Below, piece by piece: positions 2,628-33,227 of a DNA stretch of 64,000 nt (position 1 is its first letter; every line of letters begins with the position of its first letter). The position numbers were made by a program, and so were the translations under genes. The notes under the pieces were generated by a model. The model was given only the letters and a program-made list of their open reading frames with translations, did not search any database and was not told the origin of the DNA. The DNA comes from a virus. The stretch covers positions 1 through 64,000 of the IMG/VR virus record IMGVR_UViG_3300035181_000357; one strand, 5' to 3'.

Positions 2628-5393
2628 TTATAATAAGAAGGCTTTTACTCTAAAGTACATTGTTACTGCTGTTCCAGTTGCTGTAGAAGCGGCTAGCAAT
2701 CTCATAGATCCAGCACTAACATCAGATGTGAATGTTACACCATGAGTACCGATTGAATCATCTTCTATAACCATCAACTGGGTTGTTGATGCAGAAGTCT
2801 GGAGAACCGTTAAATATCCTACTGTATAATTTCCAGCGCCTCTTGATAATTGATACTCTATTCTAACACTTCTGTACGTTGCTACTGCCCAAGAACATCC
2901 AGTGACTAAAGCTGCTGCCTGGTTATCAGCAATCGTAGCTGTGTTGTTCTGTAGGCCTAGGTCATTTATAAGTATGTTATTGACTTTAGAGATCGTTGTC
3001 GCAAAGCTGTTAGCTGCTGTAGTCACATCTCCTGTCATTGCTACTGTTTGGATCACAGTACCAGAGAAAGTAAATGTAGCACCTAACGTCAGAGCCTGGG
3101 CAACCGCAGTTCCACCAGTAGAGTTACCTACTATCGATACAGTAGGTACAGATTGGAGATCTGTGTAAAGAACAGTAGAATAGGCTGGGGCATTTGCAAC
3201 TGTACCAGTACCAGTAGAAGTTAGGAACTGTTTAGCATTGGTAGTGTTACCAGCTAATCTTGTAGGTACGCCACCAGTACCACCATAAGTGATATCACCA
3301 ATAGCAGCCATTGGGGTATTTAGATTGGCATTCCACTTACTAACGCCATTGGCAATCAAAGTACATGAACCATATGGTGCTGTGATATTGATTGAAGTCA
3401 AAGCACTATTTACAGTATCAGTACCATTACGTGCAATCGTGATAAACACGGTTGGTGTAATAGAACCAGACATATCTACGATGGTAACACGCTGGCCTGT
3501 GGTAGTAGCAGGTGGGAGAGTGATAGTACGAGTAGCTGTTAAAGAAGTGATATATACAATAATATCGTTCCTTAAAGTCACAGTATAGTTTGCATCAGCA
3601 ACAGCTACAGGAATTTCCTCATATACGAGGATAGTCCATTTACCAGCTCCGTTGCTTTCTAGGCAAGTAGCACCATAAGCAGATGATATAACATTAGTGG
3701 TCTGACCTTCGATAGTATCAGTACCAGCTCTTGTAATCGTGATAGTATTAGTCGATGTTACAGATCCAGATTCGTCAAATATCCAGAGGATCTGACCAGC
3801 AGTCGTTGCGGCTGGGAGCGTGATGGTTCTAGCTGCTGTGATAGAGGTAACAGCTACATATGCATCCTGAGTAGTAGCGATCGTGTAAGCAGTATCTACT
3901 ACCGTCAAACGATTCTTAGTAGCAGGAGTGTAACCAAGGTCTGACCAGGTGTAGGCTAATAACGTCTTAGCCTGGGCTACAGTCATATCTGTTGGATTTG
4001 TCACACCAGCTGTATTGTTACCTTTGAAGGTATTGGCTGGGGCGGTTGCTAACTTTGCATTCGTTACAGCATTAGCTGCAATAGTTAATACAACCGAGTT
4101 AGCAGGTGAGGTTACATCACCACCAGTAAATGCTACTGTTTGGAGTGCAGAACCAGAGAATGTTAATGCTGCACCGAGTGTGATATTGGTGGCATTAGCT
4201 GATCCGGCAGTTGGATTACCTACTAAGCTTGAAGCTGCGACAGTTTGGAATTTACCATAAGTAACCGCGTTATTTAATATAGTAGCAATACCAGTAGCAC
4301 CAACGGTAAAATCACCTGAAAACCAGGTGTTATCTATACTTACTGTGGTCGTAGTTAATTTAACACCGTTATTGAAGGTATAAGAAGCAGCTACTGAATA
4401 CTGTACCCACTGAGTTCCATTATATGCCCACTGCTGATCCGCATTTGAACCAGATCTGATAAAGATCAGGTCTCCATCTACTGCCACACCTGTCCCAGAC
4501 TGGCCTTCTAATGGAGTCGTAGGAGTTGAGCCACCACCAACCCAGGTTACATTTCCTGTGATACCTGCTACTACGAATACCTTATTATTGTATGAGGCCA
4601 TCGCACCAGTTAAATTGGTATATAGTACTCTATCACCGATGGCATAAGTATATGACTGAGCAGCGTTAGTTAATGCTGTTGGGAGAGCCGTGGTATAATT
4701 TACAGTATCAATTATTGCTACAGGAGGTCTGACGCTGATCCCTACCTTAGCTGCATTAACCTGCCCCACAGTAGCGAGAGCCTGCACATTAGTAGAAGTA
4801 TTAGTTACTAGGGGAGGATATGCTAGAGTCTGACCATCTAGGCCAGGATCTTTCTTAACCAGATTTGCATACTCTGCATTAGTTAGAAGACCACCAACAG
4901 ATGTTGCAGCATTAGAAGCTAATGGGATATTGAAAGTATGGGTATTGACATTGTTGTTGACACTCACCCATGTTGGGCCAGTATTTGTACCAGATACTAC
5001 TGTAGCAGCGAACGTCTGAGCATTGTAAGTAGCAGTTGAAATGCCATTTAATGAACTTAAACTGGCTGTTCCAGCTGGAATCCAAGATAAAGTAGTACCA
5101 CCATTATTAGATAGAACATATCCGCTGTTACCAGTTGTAGTAGGTAACATAGCTAGGAGAGATGTATTATCTTCTAAAGCCAGGGTACCAGATCTGTTTA
5201 CAAACGAGAAGGTTTTATCAGAAGTGGTTATGTTCGCAGCACTGACGATTGCTTTAAAAGCTGAAGCTACAGCCCCAGTACCACCTTGTAAACTTATAGT
5301 ACCATCAGGATTATAGGCGAAGGATCTTACTAACGTTCCGTTATTGGCTACGACGGACCATGATGAGTTTAGACTAAGAATCTGTTTAGCCAT
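2628..5393 (-). CDS. Large tail-fibre-type protein, 921 aa
   Basis: A long protein rich in Thr, Ala, Ser and Asn with very few charged residues, typical of phage fibres. It contains two related blocks of roughly 95 residues (around residues 500 and 600), each starting with a D-Y-T/A-x-T-V/I segment, then ARTITLPAATTAGQ or TRTITLPPATTTGQ, then an ITITRAGTDT or ITIARNGTDT segment, ending in G-K/S-KW. A second repeated motif is SLVGNPTAGSANAT / VSIVGNSTGGTAVAQ followed by LTFSG or FTFSG. The internal repeats suggest a repeating beta fold. The start has an SD (AGGAG) inside a small hairpin at 5399-5419. Role inferred from composition and position. Confidence 0.75.
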   Translation of the reverse strand: MAKQILSLNSSWSVVANNGTLVRSFAYNPDGTISLQGGTGAVASAFKAIVSAANITTSDKTFSFVNRSGTLALEDNTSLLAMLPTTTGNSGYVLSNNGGTTLSWIPAGTASLSSLNGISTATYNAQTFAATVVSGTNTGPTWVSVNNNVNTHTFNIPLASNAATSVGGLLTNAEYANLVKKDPGLDGQTLAYPPLVTNTSTNVQALATVGQVNAAKVGISVRPPVAIIDTVNYTTALPTALTNAAQSYTYAIGDRVLYTNLTGAMASYNNKVFVVAGITGNVTWVGGGSTPTTPLEGQSGTGVAVDGDLIFIRSGSNADQQWAYNGTQWVQYSVAASYTFNNGVKLTTTTVSIDNTWFSGDFTVGATGIATILNNAVTYGKFQTVAASSLVGNPTAGSANATNITLGAALTFSGSALQTVAFTGGDVTSPANSVVLTIAANAVTNAKLATAPANTFKGNNTAGVTNPTDMTVAQAKTLLAYTWSDLGYTPATKNRLTVVDTAYTIATTQDAYVAVTSITAARTITLPAATTAGQILWIFDESGSVTSTNTITITRAGTDTIEGQTTNVISSAYGATCLESNGAGKWTILVYEEIPVAVADANYTVTLRNDIIVYITSLTATRTITLPPATTTGQRVTIVDMSGSITPTVFITIARNGTDTVNSALTSINITAPYGSCTLIANGVSKWNANLNTPMAAIGDITYGGTGGVPTRLAGNTTNAKQFLTSTGTGTVANAPAYSTVLYTDLQSVPTVSIVGNSTGGTAVAQALTLGATFTFSGTVIQTVAMTGDVTTAANSFATTISKVNNILINDLGLQNNTATIADNQAAALVTGCSWAVATYRSVRIEYQLSRGAGNYTVGYLTVLQTSASTTQLMVIEDDSIGTHGVTFTSDVSAGSMRLLAASTATGTAVTMYFRVKAFLL

Positions 5394-5398
5394 TTTTA

Positions 5399-5419
5399 CA
5401 TTCTCCTACTAAGAGAATG
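5399..5419 (-). promoter_or_regulatory. Hairpin carrying the ribosome binding site of the fibre gene
   Basis: A 7-bp stem (CATTCTC / GAGAATG) with a 7-base loop lies immediately before the ATG at 5393. On the minus strand the AGGAG is at the loop/3'-arm junction, so folding could limit ribosome access. A similar ATTCTC/GAGAAT stem occurs before the gene at 16722-17027. Function not shown by sequence alone. Confidence 0.35.
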
Positions 5420-5425
5420 AAAGTC

Positions 5426-6106
5426 CTAGACTGGCAATGAGATTCTAAATAGCTGAATTATTCTAGAAAATGCCCCAGAGTTATCCGTGGTCACACGTAG
5501 ACTGAGATTCCCAACAGAAATAATGGAATCGAAGGATGTTCCACAGGCAACGCCTATTGCACATCCAACAGTCTGGAATATGTTTACGTTTGTACCATCG
5601 TGAATTAGATAAATTTGACCTGTCTCATATCCAGAATTATCAGAATTTCTAATAGAATAAGTATATTGGACTGCTCTATAAACTGCTATTGCCAACGAAT
5701 CGATAATAATATTTGGAGAATTGGTGTTCACTGTTGCAGAAAAATTACTGGTGAAGATTGGAGCTTCTACTGATCCTGTAAATTCTGTAGTTCGATCTGC
5801 ATTTATTCTGGCTATGTCAGCATTAGAAGAATCACGAACAACAAATACAGTATTTAAAGTATCATAGCCTTTAAAACTAACAGGACCAAGCGCATTAGTA
5901 ATGGTGATGTTGGTACCACCATTATATGCTCCCTGTAGACTTCCACTAGTTCCAGAACCACCGACGACCAACGATGGATCGATCTTCCCATCGACCCCTG
6001 TGATTACTACTTTACCAGCATCCGCTATTCCAGTACTAACGTCAACAGTAAATATCTGTCCAAACGTAGCTGGGTTATTGGGATTCCTGGTAAGAAGAGT
6101 ATACAA
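5426..6106 (-). CDS. Tail-fibre-associated structural protein, 226 aa
   Basis: A Ser/Thr/Asn/Gly-rich protein. Residues 1-50 contain a start typical of phage fibre proteins (NPNNPATFGQIFTVD, then GKVVITGVDGKIDPSLV). A central part with NTVFVVRDSSNADIARI and TTEFTGSVEAP resembles sequence found just before chaperone-type or trimerising ends of phage fibres. It lies 32 bases upstream of the large fibre gene, with which it is probably cotranscribed. A short fibre or fibre-tip protein is likely; no catalytic motif is visible. Confidence 0.6.
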   Translation of the reverse strand: MYTLLTRNPNNPATFGQIFTVDVSTGIADAGKVVITGVDGKIDPSLVVGGSGTSGSLQGAYNGGTNITITNALGPVSFKGYDTLNTVFVVRDSSNADIARINADRTTEFTGSVEAPIFTSNFSATVNTNSPNIIIDSLAIAVYRAVQYTYSIRNSDNSGYETGQIYLIHDGTNVNIFQTVGCAIGVACGTSFDSIISVGNLSLRVTTDNSGAFSRIIQLFRISLPV

Positions 6107-6136
6107 CGGTTCCTCACTTAATTAGATACGAGAAAC

Positions 6137-6646
6137 TTATTCTCTTCGTCTCATTCTTTCCAGGACTATCTCAGCAATGGACACAGATACGAATTCATCA
6201 ATGTTCCTACCGAAATTTCCGAGGGTCTTAATCAGAGAGCTCGATACCTCGACATACTTGGGACTTGGTGTGATATAGATAGTGCTTACGAATGGATTTA
6301 AGTGATGGTTTATATTTTCGATAGAGCGTTCGTAATTGAAATCTTCAGAAGATCTCAATCCCCTCAACATTACCCATATCTCTCTAGATGCGGCATAATC
6401 TACACAAAGATCACCATCTGTTAGCACATCTATGGTTATCCTACTTAGATCATCTGGACTAAATTTACTATCTAGAGATCTGTAGATTAAATCCATTCTT
6501 TCATGTTTTTCAAACAGATATTTTTTACCAGGATTATCAGCAATAAGAATAGTCAGGTGCTTAAATAGTATAAGACCTTGTCTTATAGTATCTATATGTC
6601 CTAGATGAACTGGATCAAACGACCCAGCATATAATCCCTTCTCCAT
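6137..6646 (-). CDS. coaD: Phosphopantetheine adenylyltransferase (CoaD-like)
   Basis: CoaD adenylates 4'-phosphopantetheine with ATP to give dephospho-CoA, the penultimate step of coenzyme A synthesis. The 169-residue length matches bacterial CoaD (about 160). Visible motifs: GSFDPVHLGH (residues 8-17, the T/HxGH nucleotidyltransferase signature), RGLRSSEDFNYE (95-106) and NINHHL (111-116), which are specific to CoaD within this superfamily, and SSSLIK (135-140), corresponding to the ISSTxxR/K phosphate motif. It overlaps the DHH phosphoesterase gene by 32 bases, so both are in one operon. A CoaD gene is unusual in a phage. A related cytidylyl- or NMN-adenylyltransferase is less likely because of the RGLR and NxxL motifs. 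Confidence 0.85.
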   Translation of the reverse strand: MEKGLYAGSFDPVHLGHIDTIRQGLILFKHLTILIADNPGKKYLFEKHERMDLIYRSLDSKFSPDDLSRITIDVLTDGDLCVDYAASREIWVMLRGLRSSEDFNYERSIENINHHLNPFVSTIYITPSPKYVEVSSSLIKTLGNFGRNIDEFVSVSIAEIVLERMRRRE

Positions 6647-10622: not shown

Positions 10623-11530
10623 TACAGTTCTCCTATATCGATACTCTTAGACATTGCTCTCTGAAAATCATCCATTATAGAATCAGGCATAGAGTCGTTC
10701 CCGATAATTGTTAAGGAATTTAACCTGGGATAAACATTTAATACCTCTGGATACGCATATGCGAAGACAGTTAATTTTCTAGCCAACAGCGAGCGGCCCA
10801 AAATATCCCCACCAGACTTTGAGAAGAACTTGGTATGGATCTTGGGAACCGCGATCCAGCCATCTGAGTTCTCCATCTGCATGGGGACAGTAAACTCGGT
10901 AGGCCACAGAAGTTGAAGAAGTTTGTGATGCGGTTGATGAAGTTTCATGTATTTCTCAACTTCAAACCGAAGCATAGACATATTCTGACTATCTGCGAGT
11001 GCAGGAGTCTGGTTCTTTGCAGATAGTCTCCAACTGATGTTGTTCGAGAACTTACCTGCAATACGTTCAATAGCTACTAGGTTAACAGCTTTGTTGTACG
11101 TCTCTGACCAAGGTGATTCACTCTTATCAATCTTCCCCTTAACCAATGGATCTGGAGATCCTAGTTTAACAGCATCAGCAGCCGTCTCCATGATGTCTCG
11201 TCGAAGACTATCTAGATCAAATTGGAACTGGGGAGCAGCCTGTAGATTTAGTATACACTGTGATGCAATGTTATAGTCTAGAAGATCTGTATTAGCCAAC
11301 TGTTTAGACAACAGGATCCCATCATATGTAACAGGTCTCTCTCGCTTAACTGATTCAAAGATATCAGAGAAGATAGTCCATACGAACTGTCTAGCATGGT
11401 CAGTCCGATCGAAAGCAATAGGAAGTTTACTCGACCAGTAATCAGCCATAGTTTCTTCAGTGGCCATAACAATTCCTACGACTTCACAGAATTGCTTTAA
11501 GATAACGTCATTAAGATTTTTAGAGCTCAC
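10622..11530 (-). CDS. Hypothetical protein, 302 aa
   Basis: Not recognised. A soluble, mixed alpha/beta protein without cysteine clusters, Walker motifs or membrane segments. The first 110 residues look helical, and the C-terminal 80 contain a stretch with GGDILGRSLLARKLTVFAYAYPE. It overlaps the end of the sbcD-like gene by 11 bases and starts with ATG preceded by GAGCTC, so it is in the recombination operon. It could be a replication or recombination accessory factor by position only. Confidence 0.7.
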   Translation of the reverse strand: MSSKNLNDVILKQFCEVVGIVMATEETMADYWSSKLPIAFDRTDHARQFVWTIFSDIFESVKRERPVTYDGILLSKQLANTDLLDYNIASQCILNLQAAPQFQFDLDSLRRDIMETAADAVKLGSPDPLVKGKIDKSESPWSETYNKAVNLVAIERIAGKFSNNISWRLSAKNQTPALADSQNMSMLRFEVEKYMKLHQPHHKLLQLLWPTEFTVPMQMENSDGWIAVPKIHTKFFSKSGGDILGRSLLARKLTVFAYAYPEVLNVYPRLNSLTIIGNDSMPDSIMDDFQRAMSKSIDIGEL

Positions 11531-12509
11531 AATAATCCTTTACCAGGTCTTTAACCGTTTTATCATCACAGATGGCATCTAGAATTTCTAGAGGATCATC
11601 TGACTCAACTTCTGATACTTGCTCTTCCATGTCATCTAGGAACATCTTCATCTCTTCAGATTTAGCTACTTTCTTCATAGATGAATCAGCTATCTGAAAA
11701 CATGCCTCTAATGGAACTGTTGGTACTATCTTCTCTACTACCTTAATCCCTTCTGCAGAAAAAGAGATTACTGGAACCACGATGTCACGATCGACTTCAT
11801 CGATTGACAAGCTGGCACGAGACAAGGATCCATAATGTAGGTGATGAGTCTTCCCGACTTTCTTTGGTTCAACTCGTGAATGGTCGTGTCCCCATAACAC
11901 TACATCAAACCCGTATGGTTCTAAAGTATTGTATCCAATAGTTCTTTCACCAAAGAAATCACCATCTTCACCAGGACGTCCTACCTGGTGGATCACAGCT
12001 ACACGGTAGCAATCATCATACTTGTCAATCTCTGGTTTAGAGGCTTTTAGTGCCTCTAACGTAGTCTCAGTGTCTCTGTAATCAAACCCAATTACCATAA
12101 CCCTGACACCCTCGTCCTGACACCTGAATACTGTAGGTTCAGTTATTGGGCGATAGACATGTGATGCAATCAGGACACCTAGGGGTGAGTTGTCTAGCGT
12201 TGATATGTTATGATTAAAATCGTGATTTCCAACAATCCCATAAATATTTCCCCCAGGAAAAGAAGAAAAAACCTCTATAGCCTGATTGATCATACTTGGA
12301 GGATTGGCTAGAGATTGCCACCTCTTAACATGAAACACATCCCCGCCACATATCGCAGCACCTTTAACTTTATGGGTGAGGGCACTGGCAAACCTTATCT
12401 TGCCCAGGATGGTCTGTTCATAATTATCTCGTCGTCTTCCAGGAGGAGTAGCGGATAGATGAATATCGGTAATGAAGGTTAGATTTATTTTATGATGATT
12501 TAGTATCAT
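11520..12509 (-). CDS. sbcD: SbcD/Mre11-like metallophosphoesterase
   Basis: The nuclease partner of SbcC/Rad50. The binuclear metal site is complete: TDIHLS (residues 14-19), GGDVFH, GNHDFNH, HQVG and WGHDHS occur in the canonical order of calcineurin-like phosphatases of the Mre11 type. The length (329) is close to that of bacterial SbcD and T4 gp47. The C-terminal 70 residues are acidic and helical and may dock onto the SbcC coil base. It lies downstream of sbcC-N, the coiled-coil gene and the deaminase, with a 106-base leader containing a (GAGAA)16 repeat. The SD is GGAAG. The predicted complex processes DNA ends and hairpins during replication and recombination. Confidence 0.9.
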   Translation of the reverse strand: MILNHHKINLTFITDIHLSATPPGRRRDNYEQTILGKIRFASALTHKVKGAAICGGDVFHVKRWQSLANPPSMINQAIEVFSSFPGGNIYGIVGNHDFNHNISTLDNSPLGVLIASHVYRPITEPTVFRCQDEGVRVMVIGFDYRDTETTLEALKASKPEIDKYDDCYRVAVIHQVGRPGEDGDFFGERTIGYNTLEPYGFDVVLWGHDHSRVEPKKVGKTHHLHYGSLSRASLSIDEVDRDIVVPVISFSAEGIKVVEKIVPTVPLEACFQIADSSMKKVAKSEEMKMFLDDMEEQVSEVESDDPLEILDAICDDKTVKDLVKDYCEL

Positions 12510-12615: not shown

Positions 12616-13206
12616 TTAATCGATAACTCTTATGAATTTCATACCAGAATTCCTAGATATCCAGGATAATGCTGGTCTATCATACTCGGGTTGAGGTCTA
12701 TCTGTTTTATATATGACTGTATTAACATTCCGAACTACACATTGTTTAGCACAATCTAAACAGGGGACAGCTGAGCAGAATAACACATACCCATCTTTGT
12801 CATTCAGATTAGATACCCTTGAAAATGCATCTATTTCTGCATGTATAGTCAGTCTACAGGTTCTTTCAGGTTGACATCCTATATCATTACATGAGAGTTC
12901 GTTGTCTTTTGAATATGGATAACGATTATATCCATATTCAGATTCTCTACTTTGGATAGAATAGATACATGACCCTATCTTAGCTCTACAGCATGGGGAG
13001 AAAGAACTTGTGATCTCTATATCCTTGAATATTTTAGATGTAAATTCATCTAGTTCAGCCAAGCCACCTAGCCCGAGAAGACCTGTTAAATAACTAGCCA
13101 TATCAAATTCTGGTTCCACTGGATACCAGATTATATTGTCACTATAGTCTAACTTTAGTTTAGACTCAGTTAAAGGATCACCGAATTCTTCTTGGACGAA
13201 TCGCAT
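12616..13206 (-). CDS. dCMP deaminase family protein
   Basis: A 196-residue zinc-dependent cytidine/deoxycytidylate deaminase. The catalytic motifs are HAEIDAF (122-128, zinc ligand His and proton-shuttling Glu) and PCLDC (148-152, two zinc-ligand cysteines). It would convert dCMP to dUMP, supplying thymidylate precursors and competing with the hydroxymethylase for dCMP. The region before HAE is long and includes CCRAKIGSC and SCNDIGC, with extra cysteines suggesting a second zinc site as in some phage and human dCMP deaminases. The start shares one base with the stop of the coiled-coil gene (TAATG). T4 carries the same pair of enzymes. Confidence 0.85.
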   Translation of the reverse strand: MRFVQEEFGDPLTESKLKLDYSDNIIWYPVEPEFDMASYLTGLLGLGGLAELDEFTSKIFKDIEITSSFSPCCRAKIGSCIYSIQSRESEYGYNRYPYSKDNELSCNDIGCQPERTCRLTIHAEIDAFSRVSNLNDKDGYVLFCSAVPCLDCAKQCVVRNVNTVIYKTDRPQPEYDRPALSWISRNSGMKFIRVID

Positions 13207-13484
13207 TAGAGCTCCTTGAACTTAGATACCAAGGTCTCGGCCTTTTCAAGCGTCTCTTCTATCTCAGCCAGTACTTTTTCAGATTCAGCTTGAAGCTTCT
13301 CCTGCAGTTCCTTTATCTCCTGAACAGATAGTTCTTCTACATCATATCCAAGATCAGAAAGTTCTTTCATAGCTCTCTTCTTATTCTGCTCTTCGACAGC
13401 AATCTTACCTACGATCGCTTCTTTGCTTTTAGTGAGAGTCACTACTCTCTTCTCAACGGCTGCAATTCTCTCTTGAGTATCCAT
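13206..13484 (-). CDS. Coiled-coil protein, 92 aa; possible returning coil of split SbcC
   Basis: A 92-residue, Lys/Glu-rich protein that looks like one long coiled coil broken once around DLGYDVEEL (residues 45-53). It starts with ATG directly after the TAA of the sbcC N-half, and the two frames are the same, so only one stop codon separates them. GAGG upstream gives it its own ribosome binding site. Since the N-half ends at the zinc hook, this coil is positioned where the descending arm of SbcC would begin. No Walker B or signature motif is present here; those lie in 32508-33227. A small separate chaperone-like coil cannot be excluded. Confidence 0.75.
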   Translation of the reverse strand: MDTQERIAAVEKRVVTLTKSKEAIVGKIAVEEQNKKRAMKELSDLGYDVEELSVQEIKELQEKLQAESEKVLAEIEETLEKAETLVSKFKEL

Positions 13485-14660
13485 TTAAACCTCTACTTTA
13501 AACATGTAACCACACTTAGGGCATTCTACTTTTGACGCTTGTTCTATCTGTTCTTGCTTACGGAGATCCTTTAAATCTCCTGATGTAGATTCTAAATCTG
13601 ATGATACTGTATCTAAGTCATTTTTGAGCAGCTTCAATAACCTGATATATCCGATGTAGTTGGGAAGTAACAGACACGCCGTATCTAGGTCTAGCAATTT
13701 CTTCTTATCTTTATTCAAGGAATCAGTGTCTAGAGCCTTAGTATCCAGGGTCACACTCTTTTTATTATATACATCTAAGAGGTATACAATAGAAGATAGT
13801 CTGGATTGTTTGTTTACAAGCTCCACTAGTTCCTTGAATGTTTCTAAACTTTTAGAAGATAAAGAATACGCGTACCTTGAATATCTATATGTGGATAGTA
13901 GACTAGATACCTTAGAGTTATTGGCTACAGGAGTCAAATCAAAATCTAGAACATCTATCTCAGATTTAGTCTCTACTAACTTATCTAGTTTATCAGATGT
14001 GATTAAAAATGTATCGACACAATCTACTGTGTCTAACAGTTCATTGTTCCTAGAATCCAATTTCTTTAAAGTTTTGGAAACAGGTTTAGCTTGTTCCAAG
14101 AACATACTTAGTTTATGTGCTTTAGCCTCTGCATCAGTTATCATCTTAGCCGTTACTTTAGCCTCTACATCTAGTTCTTTTATCTTCGTACCGATCCTTT
14201 TCTTACCTTGATCTAATTTCTCTGTTGAAGAAAATGCACCCAACACAGTGTTCAAATCAGCTGGTGAACTACAAAGAAGGAATTGATTATCAAACTGACC
14301 ACCAAAGATGGGATCAAGCTCGACATTCCCAATATGGATAGAAGAGTACCCCATCTTAGCAACAGCTTCTGGGATATTCCCTGCGAGCTTCCCATACTCT
14401 ACACCGTTCACGGTATAAGTAGTAGCAGCCTTCGTAGTTCTTTTAGCAACGACAGTGTTCTTATCAAAAGAGATAGAAACAGCTAATTCTGTCTCACCTA
14501 TCTTGATCTTGTTAGCACCGATATCATTCCTAAATGTTCCACGAATCATTCGAAATACAGAAGACTTACCAATATCTGAGGGACCCACTATAGCAGTGAA
14601 TCCCTCGATATCAAGAAATGCATCTGACCAAGATTGAAAGTTAGATGCTTGTACTCGCAT
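13485..14660 (-). CDS. SbcC/Rad50 N-terminal half (ATPase Walker A, coil, zinc hook)
   Basis: A 391-residue protein that matches only the first half of SbcC/Rad50. Residues 1-20 form the first strand, GPSDIGKSS (26-34) is the Walker A, and FDNQFLL (about 122-128) fits the Q-loop. Residues about 145-375 are largely helical, and the C-terminus has CPKCGYMF (about 381-388), the CxxC zinc hook where the Rad50 chain normally turns back. No ABC signature or Walker B follows; these occur in 32508-33227, about 18 kb away. Its stop is immediately followed, in frame, by the ATG of a coiled-coil gene. It begins in a one-base overlap with recA. Expected partner: the SbcD-like nuclease at 11520-12509. Confidence 0.85.
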   Translation of the reverse strand: MRVQASNFQSWSDAFLDIEGFTAIVGPSDIGKSSVFRMIRGTFRNDIGANKIKIGETELAVSISFDKNTVVAKRTTKAATTYTVNGVEYGKLAGNIPEAVAKMGYSSIHIGNVELDPIFGGQFDNQFLLCSSPADLNTVLGAFSSTEKLDQGKKRIGTKIKELDVEAKVTAKMITDAEAKAHKLSMFLEQAKPVSKTLKKLDSRNNELLDTVDCVDTFLITSDKLDKLVETKSEIDVLDFDLTPVANNSKVSSLLSTYRYSRYAYSLSSKSLETFKELVELVNKQSRLSSIVYLLDVYNKKSVTLDTKALDTDSLNKDKKKLLDLDTACLLLPNYIGYIRLLKLLKNDLDTVSSDLESTSGDLKDLRKQEQIEQASKVECPKCGYMFKVEV

Positions 14661-15913
14661 TAGAACTCGTCTTCATCGTCTAAAATATCAGCGGATCCAT
14701 CGAATTCAGCGATATCTACACCATCTTCTTTGTGACCAGCCACTAACATCTCACCCTCGGTCAATACCGTATCAAAGGCTCCAGAATTATCAGAACGAAT
14801 GACTTCAACGAGCTGAGCTTTCAATCTGGTTAAGACCTCGAGATTTTCATCATAGACTAGATCTCTTACAGCCTGTTCCTTGTTGTCGTAGGTAGCGATG
14901 ATGTCTTCGTCGATCCCGACGAGCCACTTCTGACCCTTGTTCCTAATAAGACCATAACTACGAGCAAGCTCACGAACAGACATCCAATCATCAAGGCCAC
15001 GACCAGTTCTAAGATAGATAGAGTATTCTCTGTAGCTACCCATCGTAACCTTGTTCTTAAGAACTCGAACCTTGACCTTGGTAGCTTTGACACTCTTTGA
15101 GCTATTACTGTCAGACTCTGCTTCCATCAAGAAAGGATCGTCCACAGCACCCTTTAAAGCCTTCTGAGCATTGACTTCGATCATCAAAGATGGGACGTAG
15201 CGAACACTGTTTCCACCAGGTAGAACATATGGTAGATTGGTGTAAGATGGGTACTTTTGAGCCATAGCAGCCTCTTGACTACCATCGATACGAGCACGAA
15301 TCTGATTAACCATCAAGAATGAACAATCATGCTGCATTGCATATGGTAAAAGAATATCGAAGAAACGAACCATCATACGAGCGTGTTCTCCGACGCTTGC
15401 CTTGAAAGCTTGACCACTGCGGATGTCCTTCTTGTCTCGCTTCTGCTTCATCTTTGGAATGGAGTCGAATACGAACAGCTTACATCCGGCTTCAATGTAC
15501 TCCACAGCCTTCTGAATACAGTCCTCAATATCCGAGATCTTGAATACAGCGAGACCTGGACCAGTATTAACACCGACATTCTTAAGGTATTCGAAGGTGA
15601 CAGTTCCTTCAAAGTCGAAGATTACTGCAGGTAATCCAGTTTCTTTCTGGTAATTCTTCACCAAGTGATAACAGATAGTTGATTTACCGCCATGTTCTTT
15701 ACCATGAATATGGATTACACGACCACCAAAGGGGATACCTTGTAATCTTAGAACTTCATCCCAGACAATCGAATTGGTTGGGACCTTATGTTCTTGGTAA
15801 TTCTCGTCGATTAGGAACGAATTCGCATCATCTTTATACGATGCAGATAAAGAGGCAAACCTTGTCATCACATCACCACTAAGATCTTCTGATTTTGTTT
15901 TCTTTCTTGCCAT
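14660..15913 (-). CDS. recA: RecA/UvsX-like recombinase
   Basis: A 417-residue strand-exchange ATPase. GKEHGGKST (71-79) is the Walker A, preceded by the typical GGRVIHIHG strand. VIFDFEGTV and LFVFDSIP give the next conserved strands, the latter being the Walker B, and LMVNQIRARI matches the RecA/Sak4 'NQ' strand after loop 1. The C-terminal 50 residues are acidic (ending DILDDEDEF), as in RecA, where such a tail modulates DNA binding. The protein forms filaments on ssDNA and drives recombination-dependent replication and repair. It is in one operon with the RuvC-like gene upstream and sbcC-N downstream. Confidence 0.9.
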   Translation of the reverse strand: MARKKTKSEDLSGDVMTRFASLSASYKDDANSFLIDENYQEHKVPTNSIVWDEVLRLQGIPFGGRVIHIHGKEHGGKSTICYHLVKNYQKETGLPAVIFDFEGTVTFEYLKNVGVNTGPGLAVFKISDIEDCIQKAVEYIEAGCKLFVFDSIPKMKQKRDKKDIRSGQAFKASVGEHARMMVRFFDILLPYAMQHDCSFLMVNQIRARIDGSQEAAMAQKYPSYTNLPYVLPGGNSVRYVPSLMIEVNAQKALKGAVDDPFLMEAESDSNSSKSVKATKVKVRVLKNKVTMGSYREYSIYLRTGRGLDDWMSVRELARSYGLIRNKGQKWLVGIDEDIIATYDNKEQAVRDLVYDENLEVLTRLKAQLVEVIRSDNSGAFDTVLTEGEMLVAGHKEDGVDIAEFDGSADILDDEDEF

Positions 15914-24051: not shown

Positions 24052-24942
24052 CTAAGTGAACTCAAGTTCCTTTTTATTTATCCAATATTCATATGGGTCT
24101 TTGAACTTATCTTTCAACATCCATACCCTATGACCATCAGCTTTAAGTCTATTACTGTATTCAGCCCCTACTTCGTCAGAATCTAATATAAATACTAATT
24201 TCAGACCCTCGAGTTGCTTCCAGTGCATGTCAGAAATGAATGCACTACCCAATCCAACCGATTGCATCCCAAGCTGATCACAAGCTACATGATCAAAGAA
24301 CCCTTCTACTACGTAGACAGTCTTGTTGGGATCTATTTTATGAAGACCGAACGTAGCCGATCTACCATGAGAGAATAGCCACTTTGCCCAGAACTTGCTG
24401 ACATGTTCATCCACATATCTGAATACCAGGTTATTTAGATTCCCTTGTCTATCGTAACTAGGCATAACTATCTGCTCTTGAACTAACATATCGGTGGGTT
24501 CACCTAATTGTTCTAACTTGTAGCTAGCGTATTCTAGCTCTTCTTTATAGAATGGGAAATATCTAGATAACGATTTATAATCATGATCTCGGTATCGCCA
24601 TGAACTCATTTGGTATTCATGGATCAGGTCCATTGGAAATGACCTAGCCTTTAGATAGTCCGAGCATATTTCTGACATAGGTTGGCTCAAGATATCGTTA
24701 ACTTCATCTATACATAAATCTGGATGTCTAGGGACATAGTCAGGATACCCGAATTTCGTAGCTATAGACTTGGCATAATCTCTGTTTACGGTATGATGAT
24801 CTAACGCTGCTTTCATCTCACCATGAGGAACTAGTAACTTGGCTAGTTCAATACCCTCTTCTGGTACGAAGTACTCCAGAAATGGTAGAGGATCAATAAC
24901 CAATTTATACCGTAACTTTTTCTTAGGTCCAGGATTCAACAT
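24052..24942 (-). CDS. DnaG-type primase core (TOPRIM), without zinc domain
   Basis: A 296-residue primase-like protein. The first 190 residues resemble the RNA polymerase N-subdomain of DnaG (RSFPMDLIHEY, then MPSYDRQGNLNNLVFRYVDE). The TOPRIM domain follows: VYVVEGFFDHVA with E213, QSVGLGSAF, and FILDSDEVG with D254 and D256, the metal ligands. The CHC2 zinc domain that DnaG carries at its N-terminus is absent and occurs as a separate protein at 47582-48223. It should make RNA primers when helped by the zinc protein. It stands alone between two terminators; its SD is weak. A second TOPRIM protein is at 31461-32228. Confidence 0.8.
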   Translation of the reverse strand: MLNPGPKKKLRYKLVIDPLPFLEYFVPEEGIELAKLLVPHGEMKAALDHHTVNRDYAKSIATKFGYPDYVPRHPDLCIDEVNDILSQPMSEICSDYLKARSFPMDLIHEYQMSSWRYRDHDYKSLSRYFPFYKEELEYASYKLEQLGEPTDMLVQEQIVMPSYDRQGNLNNLVFRYVDEHVSKFWAKWLFSHGRSATFGLHKIDPNKTVYVVEGFFDHVACDQLGMQSVGLGSAFISDMHWKQLEGLKLVFILDSDEVGAEYSNRLKADGHRVWMLKDKFKDPYEYWINKKELEFT

Positions 24943-27121: not shown

Positions 27122-28174
27122 CTACTTATTGATTAGCCTTGCGAAATTAAGAGCACCTCTTGCAGTAGCATCGAGGGGATACGTAGCGGAACGAGCTGTC
27201 CCGACACGGAAACGAACATTGAGATTCTTCATAAAGATGTCATTGAACATCTTATCGAAACCAGGAATTAAGCTAGTACCACCAGAATAAATAACTGGTA
27301 CCAGTTCCTTAATCTCAGTACGATTTGCTGGCATTGCAAAGAACTCATTTACAGCATCTACTAACTTAGTTAGAAGTTCCTTGTACATCAAGGAGATAGC
27401 TTCTGCCTGTCTCTCTGACTGGGCATCATGTGATGTATCAGGGTTGATAATTCTGCCAGTAACAACATCTACTCCATGTTCCTTCAACATTGTAATGTGA
27501 GAGGAAAGAGAGTTAGTGGCCTTGGCTGCACCATCATCGATGAAATCACCACCGAAAGGAATGCTGAACATTCTAACAGGTAGAGATTTGTACGTGCATG
27601 CTACGTTAATCATACCAGCACCAAGAGATACACTAAGTGCGGTTAATGGTAGTTCATCCGCGTTCTTTGGAGACATAGTCTCACTGTAGGTTACAGCTAC
27701 GGCCTCGTTAATTGCTCTAGCCTTGAAACCTAATCCGTTGATGAGTTCCTGGAAAAATCTGCTGTGAAAGTTTAGATCGTTCGACTGAATGACTCCGTTC
27801 TCAAAAATTGGACCCGGAATAGAGAAAGCAGCTACTTCTCCTGTTCCTTTGCCTAAGATCTTCTCAAGAATCAGAGATACTACAGCCTTACCATCCTCTT
27901 CCTTAGAACTTATGAAACCCTTAGATAGTGGGCGACGCAGTTCACCACCGAGAGCCCCAGCAAGCTCAACAGCATCTGCACCTACTACATAAAGGTTCTC
28001 TGCACCTTGTACGAAAGAGATTCCGGACATCTCGAGCATAGGTGCTTGCTCCAACGGAAGTGATAAGAAGCAATCTCGTACGCTGCTAATCTCTACCTTT
28101 GCGTCAGTGCTTTGTACTGCGGCCACCATGAACGCAGTTCCAACGTCAACGCCTTGGGGATTTACTTTAGACAT
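27122..28174 (-). CDS. Actin/Hsp70-fold ATPase (ParM/MreB-like)
   Basis: A 350-residue protein with the nucleotide-binding motifs of the actin superfamily in order: phosphate-1 loop GVDVGTAF (7-14), AAFSIPGP and AINEAVAV in the region of the connecting motifs, phosphate-2 loop SVSLGAGMINVA, FGGDFID, and the adenosine motif YSGGTSLIPGF near the C-terminus. Candidate roles are filament-based positioning or segregation of the phage genome, or chaperone action. Length is close to ParM/MreB (about 330-350), shorter than DnaK, favouring filament formation. The frame is open to 28228, but ATG 28174 has AAGGAG upstream and overlaps the NusG-like gene by 8 bases. Confidence 0.75.
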   Translation of the reverse strand: MSKVNPQGVDVGTAFMVAAVQSTDAKVEISSVRDCFLSLPLEQAPMLEMSGISFVQGAENLYVVGADAVELAGALGGELRRPLSKGFISSKEEDGKAVVSLILEKILGKGTGEVAAFSIPGPIFENGVIQSNDLNFHSRFFQELINGLGFKARAINEAVAVTYSETMSPKNADELPLTALSVSLGAGMINVACTYKSLPVRMFSIPFGGDFIDDGAAKATNSLSSHITMLKEHGVDVVTGRIINPDTSHDAQSERQAEAISLMYKELLTKLVDAVNEFFAMPANRTEIKELVPVIYSGGTSLIPGFDKMFNDIFMKNLNVRFRVGTARSATYPLDATARGALNFARLINK

Positions 28175-29276
28175 TCTTTCTCCTTTTAACTTGGATGTCT
28201 TTTCTAGATTTCTTACTACGCCCATCATTACATACTTCTTCTGAAGTTACTGATAGCCAAGGAGCCATCTTAGACAGCTCTTTTATAGAGATTTTATAAG
28301 AATTCCCGTACTTGGTAATGACGTCTTTATATGACTTAATGTCCTTATCTTGCCCATACATAGTCTTAGTAATGTGATATTTAAGGACGCACCAGGCAAT
28401 GACTAGATTCTTAGGTCGTTTGATCTTATCTTCTTTGATAGCTTCAAACAACTTGGCAGCGATCGCTCTCACATCTTTCTCACCAGCGAAGATCATGTTC
28501 TTGACGAAGGCAGTAATCATCTGCTGATTTGTTCTCTTTACCTTAGGTTTGATCTTCTTATCCACATGCTCGAGATCTTTGACAGCATCTTGGAATTCAT
28601 AGTCATCAACAGTCTTAATCTTAATATTTATCACTCGTTCTCCTACCAGATCTTCTATCAACAGAGATTTCAACTCTGGACCATCCTCTAAGATAGGTGA
28701 GTAATAGAATACCCTTAGATCTTTGGGAATAGTGTCTAAATTCAATAAATTCTTAAGTGGGGTCTGAACCATCATTGATGTTGTCTTGAGATCGACTTGT
28801 ACCACAGCTCTAGTTGCTGCTATGCTCTTTACTATACCACAGAAGTCTCGAGTATGACCATCTAAGATTCTGACAAAGGAGCCAGGTACTATCCCGATGT
28901 TCCTATGATCATACGTTTCCTTACATTTAGTAACAAGTCCTTGGATATAACTATCTTCTATGTTTATGAGACGATTTGGATGGGTTCCCTCACCATGGCA
29001 TACCAACCATACTACACCTGTCACAGATCGCAATTTCACAATCTTCTTAGGATCTAGGGAACGGACGAATATATAGCAATCCGTCATGAGTTCGAAGGAT
29101 TCAAGATTCCTATCAGAGACGGGAATAAAGATTTCTGCTGGGTCTTCTCTGAAGATGTTCTTGAGACTTTTCCCAATTCTCTTTATAGTCTCTTCACTAG
29201 TCTTTTCAGAACGAAGCTCAATAACATTCCATATTTTGCCAGTTAATTTAGAGGTATCACCGTATGTTAATATCAT
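28167..29276 (-). CDS. NusG-like transcription factor with KOW motif
   Basis: A 369-residue protein. Residues 10-95 fit the NusG N-terminal (NGN) domain: an opening IWNVIELRS, IFIPVSD, a TDCYIFVRS strand matching the 'GYvfV' block of NusG, and SVTGVVWLV. Residues 130-163 (PGSFVRILDGHTRDFCGIVK) form a KOW motif. NusG-type proteins bind RNA polymerase at the beta' clamp and act on pausing and termination; RfaH-like members antiterminate. The remaining 200 residues are a basic extension, helical at the end (KKSRKDIQVKRRKNV), without match. This would be a phage factor reprogramming host RNA polymerase. Its ATG overlaps the clamp-loader gene by 4 bases. Confidence 0.7.
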   Translation of the reverse strand: MILTYGDTSKLTGKIWNVIELRSEKTSEETIKRIGKSLKNIFREDPAEIFIPVSDRNLESFELMTDCYIFVRSLDPKKIVKLRSVTGVVWLVCHGEGTHPNRLINIEDSYIQGLVTKCKETYDHRNIGIVPGSFVRILDGHTRDFCGIVKSIAATRAVVQVDLKTTSMMVQTPLKNLLNLDTIPKDLRVFYYSPILEDGPELKSLLIEDLVGERVINIKIKTVDDYEFQDAVKDLEHVDKKIKPKVKRTNQQMITAFVKNMIFAGEKDVRAIAAKLFEAIKEDKIKRPKNLVIAWCVLKYHITKTMYGQDKDIKSYKDVITKYGNSYKISIKELSKMAPWLSVTSEEVCNDGRSKKSRKDIQVKRRKNV

Positions 29277-30190
29277 ATATCTCCCAATACTTTAATTCTA
29301 CCCTTAAACATCTGCATGATATCAGAGTTATCTTCGGGTTCGACATTTTTCTGAGGTGAATCCTCTAGCACTACCTGCTTGACCTGAGCCTTTATCTTGG
29401 TCACACATTTAGACAACTCATACAAGAACAGAGGTAGAATATCGACAGATGTCTGGACATTCCACTTTAGGAATAATGTGGTAACTTTCTCAGTTTCAGG
29501 AAAAGAACTCCTGATGGCTTCCCTGATCCTAGTTTCTTCTTTGGATATATACTCATCTTTGTCGAAGAAGCATTTTCCATAGTATGAGAACATATAGTTG
29601 ATAACTGTTTTATCTTCTTGTTCTTCACAGATAGCCATAGCCTCTTCTAGATTTCCGGTAGCCACAGCAGTGAAAGTTTTATATGCGATCTCATCTTCGT
29701 TGTTTTCCAGATTATCGTTCACTGATTCCCTGGATATCTTTCCTATCTTAGACAGAGTAGCTATGAAATTCTTAGCTTGTCTAATATTCCCTCTCGACTT
29801 CCTTACTACGCGATTCAAACCCTCTACAGTAAATCCAATGTTATTCTTAGAACAGAGAGCCATCAAGTACCCAACCATGTCTTTTTGATTTACCTTATTA
29901 AGATGAATCCTACAAGCTCTGGATCTGGTTGTTTCAGGTAATTTATCGTAATCCTGAACTTCCATAAAAGTCGTATGATGCTCAGAACTCAGTTCATTGG
30001 AGATAGTATAGGATATATTTTCTTTATCCAGTACTGAAGCTAGGTAGTTTATTATACTAGTTTTACCAGTACCTGGAGGTCCATCAAGGATTACCAATCT
30101 CGGGAATCTCTTTATATCAGTAAGTAGACCTCTGATGAGTTTCAGAGGTCTATCTTGCCCGATTATCTGGTCTAGACTTAGTAGTTCCAT
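29273..30190 (-). CDS. Clamp-loader-type AAA+ protein, shortened (no visible Walker B)
   Basis: A 305-residue protein resembling the DnaX/RFC clamp-loader subunit. The start (LLSLDQIIGQDRPLKLI) and Walker A GPPGTGKT (37-44) are typical, and ETTRSRACRIHL (86-97) matches the 'SRC' arginine-finger segment, followed by the lid domain and a helical collar. However, only about 40 residues lie between the Walker A and the SRC motif, where about 90-100 are usual, and no DEAD/DExx Walker B is seen. The T4 counterpart gp44 has it. It may be an inactive or delta-like subunit that needs an ATPase partner encoded elsewhere. It is adjacent, with no gap, to the gene at 30191-31459. Confidence 0.7.
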   Translation of the reverse strand: MELLSLDQIIGQDRPLKLIRGLLTDIKRFPRLVILDGPPGTGKTSIINYLASVLDKENISYTISNELSSEHHTTFMEVQDYDKLPETTRSRACRIHLNKVNQKDMVGYLMALCSKNNIGFTVEGLNRVVRKSRGNIRQAKNFIATLSKIGKISRESVNDNLENNEDEIAYKTFTAVATGNLEEAMAICEEQEDKTVINYMFSYYGKCFFDKDEYISKEETRIREAIRSSFPETEKVTTLFLKWNVQTSVDILPLFLYELSKCVTKIKAQVKQVVLEDSPQKNVEPEDNSDIMQMFKGRIKVLGDI

Positions 30191-31460: not shown

Positions 31461-32228
31461 TTACTCCTCTTCCTCTAAAATGGTTATGTTTGTAGCCATC
31501 ACTGACTCGTTCTTATCTATAATACGTCTTAAAGTGTCCCTAAGTATCAATGCGTGTTTCCTATTCTCTAAGGCAAGGCTGGCGTCCTTCCCAGGTGTCT
31601 TCACTATCTCCACAGTCATAGACTTGAAGGTTCTGGCTACGATCGTCATGGCTTCAATACCGACAGGATCCTGGTCGAACATGAGATATAGGGTCTTGAC
31701 TCCAAGCATCTGGAGATAGGCTTCCTGTTTTCTACCGATCTTCTTTGTTAGCGAGCAGAGAACTGGAATATCTGCATTTAGTGCTCTAACAGCTACGAAA
31801 TCGAAAGTACCTTCCACGACTAAAACATATCCTAGTTTCTGGATCCTGGCGAGCATCTCATTACTGTTCCCAAGCCAACTTGGTCCTAGAAAATTATCTC
31901 TATCCCCTGCGATCCAATATTTTGCACCATCTTCACCTAGAGGTTTTGTCTGTGCCTTCATTGCTACATCGTTAAGATCATATTGTGGGAATACGAATCT
32001 TGGACCAGGTTCAAATCCCTTTGGTACATACATAATAGTATGATCTGATACACATTTGGTCAAGTTAGGTTTGATCAAGTCCTCAACCTGTCCCCAATTA
32101 CGTTCTTTAATGATCTTTATGACACTTGCTTGTACCCAACCAGACTTACCCTTCTCTTCTAACCTCTTGTACAAGCCCTTGACTTTCCTGATCAAGAACT
32201 CTACATCATCCCACCACTTTTTACTCAT
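31461..32228 (-). CDS. Second TOPRIM primase-like protein
   Basis: A 255-residue protein with a TOPRIM domain in its C-terminal half: YVLVVEGTFDFVAVRALN (E139) and LYLMFDQDPVGIEA (D185, D187). The N-terminal 60 residues are helical and basic, and the middle has FVFPQYDLNDVAMKAQTKP, comparable with the strand before TOPRIM in DnaG. The start is ATG 32228, which makes an ATGA overlap with the preceding stop; the frame opens 10 codons earlier. It differs enough from 24052-24942 to be an old paralogue or a different domain class, such as a primase-like helicase or OLD-type TOPRIM. Its helicase partner is not visible. Confidence 0.7.
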   Translation of the reverse strand: MSKKWWDDVEFLIRKVKGLYKRLEEKGKSGWVQASVIKIIKERNWGQVEDLIKPNLTKCVSDHTIMYVPKGFEPGPRFVFPQYDLNDVAMKAQTKPLGEDGAKYWIAGDRDNFLGPSWLGNSNEMLARIQKLGYVLVVEGTFDFVAVRALNADIPVLCSLTKKIGRKQEAYLQMLGVKTLYLMFDQDPVGIEAMTIVARTFKSMTVEIVKTPGKDASLALENRKHALILRDTLRRIIDKNESVMATNITILEEEE

Positions 32229-32593
32229 TCTTCCCCATCCAACATTCCTAATACCCACAGGAGAACGGCTACGTCGCGATATTCACGAGGTAGGATTTGT
32301 GGATCCTTTATCTCTTCTCTGAAACCTTCGAGCAATTCTTCTTTTGTATATTTAGGTTGGAACAGATCATGATCTTTGCAAGAATCGGGATCTTTAGATT
32401 TACAGAAAGTACATCTATCCTCACCAAAATCTAGGTGTTTCACCATATCAGGATTTACGAAAGATAGTGCACCTTTACAGTTACCGACACATGGTTCAGA
32501 ATTTCTTTTAAGAAACTTCTTCTTGTGTCTGTGGATCAGGTCTCTTAGCCTTTTCTGTATTTCCTGACTTGATTTTATTTTTATCTCTGCCAT
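32225..32593 (-). CDS. Zinc-motif protein, 122 aa
   Basis: A small basic protein with CVGNC (35-39) and CTFC (62-65), plus CKDH just after, giving enough Cys/His ligands for a zinc knuckle. It precedes the second TOPRIM gene with an ATGA overlap, so together they could form a split primase: a zinc-bearing polypeptide beside a TOPRIM polypeptide. The start overlaps the end of the SbcC C-half gene by 86 bases in another frame, unusually long for this genome. Confidence 0.6.
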   Translation of the reverse strand: MAEIKIKSSQEIQKRLRDLIHRHKKKFLKRNSEPCVGNCKGALSFVNPDMVKHLDFGEDRCTFCKSKDPDSCKDHDLFQPKYTKEELLEGFREEIKDPQILPREYRDVAVLLWVLGMLDGEE

Positions 32594-33227
32594 CTGTGGT
32601 TATTTCCATAATGGATTGTGGATCTATTTCTTTAATCGTAGGACCAGTCGGTCCTTCTGCTACTTGATACACTCTGTCAGCAGCAGAAGCTAATTCAGGT
32701 TGATGTGTTACGGCCAGAATCTTGAACCCATGGTCATTTGTGAGAGTTTGTATCAATTCCGATACCTTTGGTAAATACTCTTTACTGACATTATTAAAAC
32801 TCTCGTCAACTGCCAGGAACTTAGCCATTTTAAATCTTTTAATCATGATTACACGAAGAAGAAACGAGGCTAGATTGACAACCCCACCACCAAATGAATC
32901 GAAAGGATCACCAACGAGATCACCTTTCTTAATCTGGATCTTGTAGGTAGTTCCTTTAGCTCCATCTTTCTTTTCGATGACTAAACTGGTCTTCTTACCG
33001 AAGACTAGACGTATACCACCAGTTACAATGGATTCAATCTTACCGATCCCCTTGGAACTGACTATCTGTGTCATCTTGTCGATAGTTCCCTGGGCCTTGA
33101 CCAGATTTACTTTGGTCTCTAGCAAGGAATCCACCCTCTTTCTGAGAGAATCTATATTACTGTTCTCCGAATCGAGGACACGGGATTGGGAATCTACAAA
33201 ACTACTGAACTCTTGAATGTTTATCAT
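32508..33227 (-). CDS. SbcC/Rad50 C-terminal half (signature, Walker B)
   Basis: A 239-residue protein that matches the second half of SbcC/Rad50. A short coil (about residues 15-60) is followed by ATPase motifs in order: the ABC signature as SFGGGVVNLASFL (about 111-123), Walker B FLAVDES with the catalytic glutamate (137-143), the D-loop segment FNNVSKE, and the H-loop AVTHQP (172-177). No Walker A or zinc hook is present; these are in 13485-14660. The two would have to associate to bind ATP. The C-terminal 40 residues are a polar tail overlapping the next gene. Start is ATG 33227 with a weak SD. Confidence 0.85.
   Translation of the reverse strand: MINIQEFSSFVDSQSRVLDSENSNIDSLRKRVDSLLETKVNLVKAQGTIDKMTQIVSSKGIGKIESIVTGGIRLVFGKKTSLVIEKKDGAKGTTYKIQIKKGDLVGDPFDSFGGGVVNLASFLLRVIMIKRFKMAKFLAVDESFNNVSKEYLPKVSELIQTLTNDHGFKILAVTHQPELASAADRVYQVAEGPTGPTIKEIDPQSIMEITTDGRDKNKIKSGNTEKAKRPDPQTQEEVS

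Follow-up and report, generated by a model that had tools for sequence, protein, structure and literature searches.

A Rad50/SbcC-type ATPase apparently divided among three genes in phages and bacterial chromosomes

The gene at 32508-33227 encodes, as a protein on its own, the C-terminal lobe of an ABC ATPase of the Rad50/SbcC type. It lies in what we call the window, the whole stretch of 64,000 nucleotides analysed (positions 1 to 64,000 of the viral record IMGVR_UViG_3300035181_000357), on the minus strand, with its ATG at 33227, a stop codon ending at 32508 and an in-frame TTG one codon 5' of the ATG. The 239-aa product, here called the C-half, matches the 'ATPase' family phrog_15167 over residues 29-190 (E 1.7e-16), and its SMC_N match is weak. 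PDB sequence searches with the C-half gave weak ABC matches alone, and its identity was settled by fold searches. The AlphaFold2 model, built on a 40-sequence alignment (pLDDT 90.4), consists of one long helix followed by ABC lobe II. This 73-residue N-terminal arm helix (residues 4-76 by DSSP; 33000-33218) is modelled with a pLDDT mostly of 90-98.

Lobe II carries the Walker B motif FLAVDE (residues 137-142; 32802-32819), whose D141 and E142 are present in 40 of 40 homologues, and the H-loop pair T174-H175 (32703-32708), likewise found in all 40. The D-loop region SFNNVS (residues 143-148; 32784-32801) carries the D-loop aspartate in 11 of the 40 homologues and a serine in 27, including the window. 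The ABC signature, SFGGG (residues 111-115; 32883-32897), is degenerate. Its glycines are retained (G113 in 39/40 and G114 in 40/40), and F112 stands in place of the LSGGE serine. Across the 40 homologues this column, positioned by motif alignment, holds arginine in 19, phenylalanine in 13 (the window among them), tyrosine in four and serine in none, whereas the proteins compared with them, three Firmicutes SbcCs plus the phage fusion, have the canonical LSGG[EQ]. Inspection of the C-half sequence by eye revealed neither a Walker A motif nor a CxxC.

The complementary motifs are found in a second gene on the same strand, at 13485-14660, which encodes a 391-aa Rad50/SbcC N-half (phrog_16465, E 2e-18). 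It comprises ABC lobe I and a long helical arm, and it ends in a CxxC half-hook. Its Walker A motif is GPSDIGKS (residues 26-33; 14562-14585), with G26, G31 and K32 invariant in 32 homologues, and its zinc-hook motif is CPKC (residues 380-383; 13512-13523), with C380, P381 and C383 invariant in the same number. The N-half stops only 8 residues past the hook, and its TAA is directly followed by the ATG of a small coil protein of 92 aa (13206-13484, minus strand), which we call S. S has the look, from its sequence, of a helix-break-helix hairpin, and a phage homologue belongs to phrog_18563. Also on the minus strand, at 11520-12509, lies a 329-aa SbcD/Mre11 nuclease (PF00149, E 1.1e-8; SbcD-like phrog_100, E 2.3e-6), the presumed partner; a dCMP deaminase gene (12616-13206) sits between it and S.

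Both halves are encoded among recombination and replication genes. A UvsX/RecA-like recombinase gene (14660-15913, minus strand; phrog_97, E 8.9e-39) adjoins the N-half, and the replication cluster of the C-half includes a clamp-loader ATPase (29273-30190, minus strand; phrog_5846, E 3.3e-18). The window also holds two separate TOPRIM primase-like genes (31461-32258 and 24052-24942) and a 368-aa open reading frame at 27122-28228 that is actin/ParM-like by eye and has no PHROG match at E 1e-3. Terminator-like sites show a slight excess over shuffles, near the N-half only. Against the PADLOC defence ATPases LmuB, PtuA, GajA and Mads3, the N-half gives weak partial matches, with E 2e-7 for LmuB.

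Much of the preliminary description of this DNA is borne out by these results. It had placed the C-half in a separate gene about 18 kb away, and the open reading frame is confirmed, with a gap of 17.8 kb between the N-half and C-half genes. It had assigned Walker A and the hook to the N-half, as found here, and had described a C-half coil far shorter than that of the N-half; the lengths are 76 and about 233 residues. For the C-half itself it was right about Walker B, the D-loop region, the H-loop and the lack of Walker A and hook, but not about an intact ABC signature. It had also named an intact second rad50 in the genome as evidence against a split. Throughout the 210,611-base record, PF13476 matches the N-half and the clamp loader only, and a phrog_77 search gives no match at E up to 10; since the record may be incomplete, this absence of a second SbcC is strong, yet not final.

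Overlaying the predicted folds on known structures assigns each half to its own side of an ABC head. By VIA-align 2, the C-half is structurally closest to 1f2u_B, a separate chain in the crystal that comprises the P. furiosus Rad50 C-segment (Z 13.4, rmsd 2.7, 143 aligned, residues 738-882), and the remaining matches are mostly C-lobes of Rad50, SMC and cohesin. The AlphaFold2 model of the N-half is weaker (pLDDT 70.3), although most of lobe I (about residues 1-110) is well predicted. Its residues 1-134 align to 1f2u_A 4-149 with Z 11.2, and lobe I matches the N-lobes of SMC, RecF and Rad50 about equally well. The arm is predicted as helices at 147-237, 249-302 and 313-375, separated by low-confidence breaks. 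As modelled, the N-half and C-half are complementary parts of a single ABC head, with the Walker A lobe on one chain and the Walker B/H-loop lobe on the other.

The same correspondence can be seen when the pieces are mapped onto single-chain SbcC. For a Firmicutes homologue, the N-half covers profile positions 3-453 of the 878 in Rad50 PRK03918 and 298-645 of the 967 in phrog_77, and the C-half covers 816-877 and 869-957 of the same two profiles. The expectation of the preliminary description that the halves are complementary and act in trans fits the mapping: each gene supplies what the other lacks of a single Rad50-type ATPase, and action in trans is to be expected. One contig carries a 772-aa fusion of SbcD and the N-half (L035:7111-9429; PF00149 at 36-196 and PF13476 at 344-583), with the S and C-half genes after it. 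Acinetobacter phage vB_AbaM_3098 has a single 938-aa Mre11-Rad50 chain with its parts in the matching order: one N-profile match runs to 646, just beyond the CPTC hook (630), and the main match to the C profile begins at 736. The intervening 89 residues correspond in length to S, most members of which have 75-97 aa, although a second, weaker N-profile match over 647-784, as expected of coiled coil, makes this gap an argument from size only. Profile mapping of S onto the post-hook arm of single-chain SbcC gave no significant sequence match, and such mapping says little, since coiled coils align to one another all along their length.

The same split recurs in relatives of the window phage, where the preliminary description had proposed to look for it, and well beyond them. 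An IMG/VR profile scan with an alignment of five C-half sequences found 35 C-half loci (the single-sequence query gave none), and a scan of bacterial genomes with a prophage-type alignment found 24. Among 61 non-redundant loci from phages, prophages and Firmicutes chromosomes, the C-half is present in 59; 48 of these 59 have S, and 48 have the N-half within about 10 kb. Complete sets of SbcD, N-half, S and C-half occur at 46 of the 61, and in these the SbcD/Mre11 gene lies at the same locus. Where the N-half was incomplete near the C-half, searching the whole record found it in 8 of 12 cases; the other four records are 51-91 kb long.

Isolate phages carry the pieces both far apart and side by side. 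In Tunturi_5 the C-half (gp14) lies at 19 kb and the N-half (gp181) at 128 kb, with S (gp180) adjoining the latter and SbcD at gp177. Magritte encodes the C-half as gp2 and the N-half as gp155. Bacillus phage vB_BboS-125 has the N-half, S and C-half as gp32, gp34 and gp35, with an AP2 gene between N-half and S, and in Microcystis phage Mvi-JY20 the N-half, SbcD, S and C-half genes overlap. The distance from N-half to C-half, 18 kb in the window, is about 107 kb in Tunturi_5 and about 130 kb in the genome G001; G001 and G002, which are among the closest relatives of the window phage, likewise have the N-half and S distant from the C-half. Outside the window, the genes that break up the set are AP2 or small open reading frames. 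Two phage contigs have LAGLIDADG inteins inside the N-half Walker A motif, after the GK (L024:2599-4626 and L033:3388-5631), and a 775-aa SbcD/Mre11 reading frame with a weak LAGLIDADG match (L037:3518-5842) probably holds another intein or homing insert. The 'splitting' of sbcC/sbcD in phage SPN3US was set aside as a precedent, as it concerns separated genes and not one divided sbcC.

In bacteria the four genes form compact chromosomal operons. Loci L060-L075, from Peptoniphilus, Aedoeadaptatus, Tissierellia, Thermoflavimicrobium and Ammoniphilus, have an operon in the order SbcD, N-half, S, C-half, as at L068 from Aedoeadaptatus ivorii, on a complete chromosome (3287-4264, 4261-5700, 5702-5938 and 5938-6621, respectively). 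The gene ends overlap or abut in Peptoniphilus, Aedoeadaptatus and Tissierellia, and the S-to-C gap in Firmicutes is often -4 nt. Within the Aedoeadaptatus family the C-half is found in 38 of 61 genomes, nearly always as a single copy. In 7 of 10 bacterial genomes with the split set, a TIGR00618 search (E up to 1e-10) found no ordinary SbcC, and NF003034 matched the split N-halves, reading frames of about 1200 aa that are SMC-like by length, and many weak ABC proteins. The other three, Sutcliffiella, Paenibacillus and Brevibacillus, have a phage-like N-S-C-SbcD set plus an ordinary SbcC. Because no ordinary SbcC was detected in the seven, the three-piece form may be the sole SbcC in some bacteria. 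The identical split in isolate phages and bacterial chromosomes marks it as a conserved trait and not a local breakage, and its recurrence in dozens of loci is far beyond chance.

Gene order places S at a specific point in the series. Each of the 46 complete sets keeps its four genes on one strand, and N-half, S and C-half are collinear in 45; the exception is the window, where the C-half lies upstream and N-half, S and SbcD follow. The mobile element is SbcD (M), which gives the layouts NMSC (19 sets), MNSC (18) and NSCM (8). These sets share descent and are not 46 independent events; still, one N-S-C order persists across three layouts. Its place between N-half and C-half in the compact operons puts S at the post-hook arm position of a single-chain Rad50. 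Pairwise distances among the four proteins correlate (r 0.89-0.96, n=41 sets), which, with shared ancestry uncontrolled, is supportive only. In most NMSC phage loci a gene resembling a sliding clamp separates S from the C-half (phrog_947, E 1e-22, for L006:6789-7922, which has equivalents in about 20 loci), and this order of S, clamp and C-half recalls T4, where genes 45, 46 and 47 are neighbours.

The arm lengths do not fit a simple picture of S as the missing arm. The summed length of S and the C-half arm is nearly constant, about 165 aa, whereas the N-half arm varies from 199 to 357 aa. Since the return arm is the shorter, a plain antiparallel coil would not close, and part of the N-half arm would, judging by these predicted lengths, have to fold on itself or remain unpaired. 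The preliminary description had proposed that the 92-aa protein supplies the missing arm. The position of S between the halves strongly favours this, but its length agrees only in part: S fills some of the gap between the N-half arm and the C-half coil, not all of it.

The hook offers a second view of S. The C-P-x-C motif at the arm apex is missing only in the Magritte-type N-halves (L005:7989-9041 and L048:1459-2520), and S was not detected in those same genomes. This joint lack points to a link between hook and S. One candidate for a Magritte S, L004:1-291, was dropped, as it was itself among the seed sequences and does not resemble a coil. Two other loci have S-sized, coil-like reading frames directly before the C-half that do not match the S family (L034:9556-9801 and L022:4608-4874).

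The lost signature serine bears on how the heads engage. The S793R mutation in P. furiosus Rad50 impairs both ATP binding and ATP-dependent dimerisation, and changes at S471 of T4 gp46 alter communication between DNA and ATP (PMC7247530). About half of the split family has arginine at the site of S793R, and the family may therefore gate its ATPase differently. Going by the motif alignment, ATP-driven engagement of the heads would be either rebuilt in another way or weaker.

Taking the homology, the folds, the conservation of four genes, their collinear order and the break at the hook together, all of them computed here, we infer that these genes very probably encode a three-piece Rad50/SbcC, in which the N-half and C-half build the head in trans, S forms a stretch of the return arm and SbcD/Mre11 is the partner. 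The N-half would give ABC lobe I, with Walker A and the Q-loop, along with the long helical arm and the terminal half-hook. From the C-half would come lobe II (signature glycines, Walker B, D-loop and H-loop) together with the base of the return arm, which S would extend beside the hook. On physical assembly, the two halves would associate into one ATPase head, a zinc ion at the CxxC would pair two such complexes, and SbcD/Mre11 would bind at the arm root, so that two heads join an SbcD/Mre11 dimer. ATP binding would then gate an end-processing nuclease for phage recombination and replication, as in T4 gp46/gp47. This pathway, in which ATP gates a nuclease acting in recombination-dependent replication, is the one established for Mre11-Rad50 complexes.

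An alternative that keeps assembly in trans makes S a subunit in its own right, such as a factor on the N-half arm that caps the hook or loads the head. Its hairpin look, the shortfall of S plus C-half arm against the N-half arm, the lack of a significant match to SbcC arms and the location of the S gene either beside the N-half alone (the window, Tunturi_5, G001 and G002) or near the C-half would all suit such a protein, which we consider possible, if unlikely: S keeps its place between the halves across the three layouts, its length together with the C-half arm holds steady while the N-half arm varies, and it is apparently lost where the hook is lost. It has also been proposed, in the preliminary description, that the split permits regulated assembly, with the halves expressed at different times and the ATPase formed only when both are present. 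The wide separation of the genes in the window, Tunturi_5 and G001 would suit that idea, but many bacteria have the pieces in a single overlapping operon, the four genes share one strand in the window as elsewhere, and promoter-like matches in the window are no commoner than in shuffles. With operon forms common and genes on one strand, regulated assembly is unsupported, and we regard it as improbable.

Two further readings deny that the pieces form one enzyme. If they were independent proteins, the C-half would be an ATP-independent DNA-binding or scaffold protein, and the N-half would resemble RecF or SMC and have some other partner, which would accommodate the lost serine, the likeness of the N-lobe to RecF and SMC heads and the distance between the genes in the window. 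The two halves co-occur, however, also in 8 of the 12 records where they are not neighbours, and the invariant Walker B and H-loop would be needless in an ATP-independent protein; this reading is very improbable. That the pieces are remnants of a broken SbcC, either pseudogene fragments of one former gene or an assembly error, has nothing in its favour besides the split itself. A single break point is common to isolate phages and bacterial chromosomes, the frames are intact, and the C-half is widespread within one bacterial family. We reject this reading, which is extremely improbable, on the conservation of the split across unrelated genomes. A more elaborate form of the three-piece Rad50 is doubtful: its arm loop would not be covalently closed, so that S could be exchanged and the loop could open at the S junctions, its heads would engage without the signature serine, and it would be the only SbcC in Peptoniphilus-type bacteria.

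The three-piece Rad50/SbcC, found in many unrelated phages and bacterial chromosomes, has apparently not yet been described as one system. Few DNA-repair machines are as conserved as Rad50/SbcC, which is viewed as one chain whose ends must fold together. A natural three-chain form, cut at the zinc hook, would let arm length, hook and head vary separately and so help to dissect their roles. Annotation would also be corrected, as the pieces are currently named 'exonuclease', 'ATPase' and 'hypothetical protein'. Likewise, PHROGs 16465 ('exonuclease'), 18563 ('unknown') and 15167 ('ATPase') catalogue N-half, S and C-half singly, with the split SbcC unnamed. A literature search, with subscription papers and bioRxiv preprints mostly outside its scope, did not turn up any account of a Rad50/SbcC that is split in nature.

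Some reported systems come near it. In the SbcD-SbcC fusions of Anaerostipes and Bacillus phage 0305phi8-36, one SbcC P-loop NTPase segment was not observed, and the parts of that report available to us describe no separate C-half or S gene (PMC3175470). The L035 contig likewise has SbcD fused to the N-half, and we read these fusions as a candidate, unrecognised precedent. Jumbo phages encode Pol III alpha and RNAP beta/beta-prime as distant gene pieces, with SbcC/SbcD near-universal among them; these split enzymes differ from Rad50, and the portion of that account available to us mentions no split SbcC (PMC7824862).

Compared with SbcC/Rad50 and SbcD/Mre11, as in E. coli SbcCD and T4 gp46/gp47, the split system has the same lobe I and II folds, Walker A and B motifs, H-loop, CxxC hook and helical arms. 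It also shares the SbcD/Mre11 partner and a recombination and replication neighbourhood (clamp loader and UvsX, with a sliding clamp in related phages). SMC, RecF and RecN have an ABC head without hook or Mre11 partner, whereas the split system has both a CxxC hook and SbcD. The closest structural parallel is the P. furiosus Rad50 crystals 1F2T and 1F2U, best or among the best of our matches, in which the head is also made from two chains. Chains A and B there are a laboratory construct from one natural gene with the arms removed; here the split is natural, and arms and hook are retained. Canonical SbcC/Rad50 is one polypeptide, whereas here there are three, with the break right after the hook, the signature serine lost and an N-half arm longer than the return arm. 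Since every feature tested is SbcC/Rad50-like apart from the single chain and the signature serine, the system is best placed as a split, diverged branch of the family and not as a canonical member.
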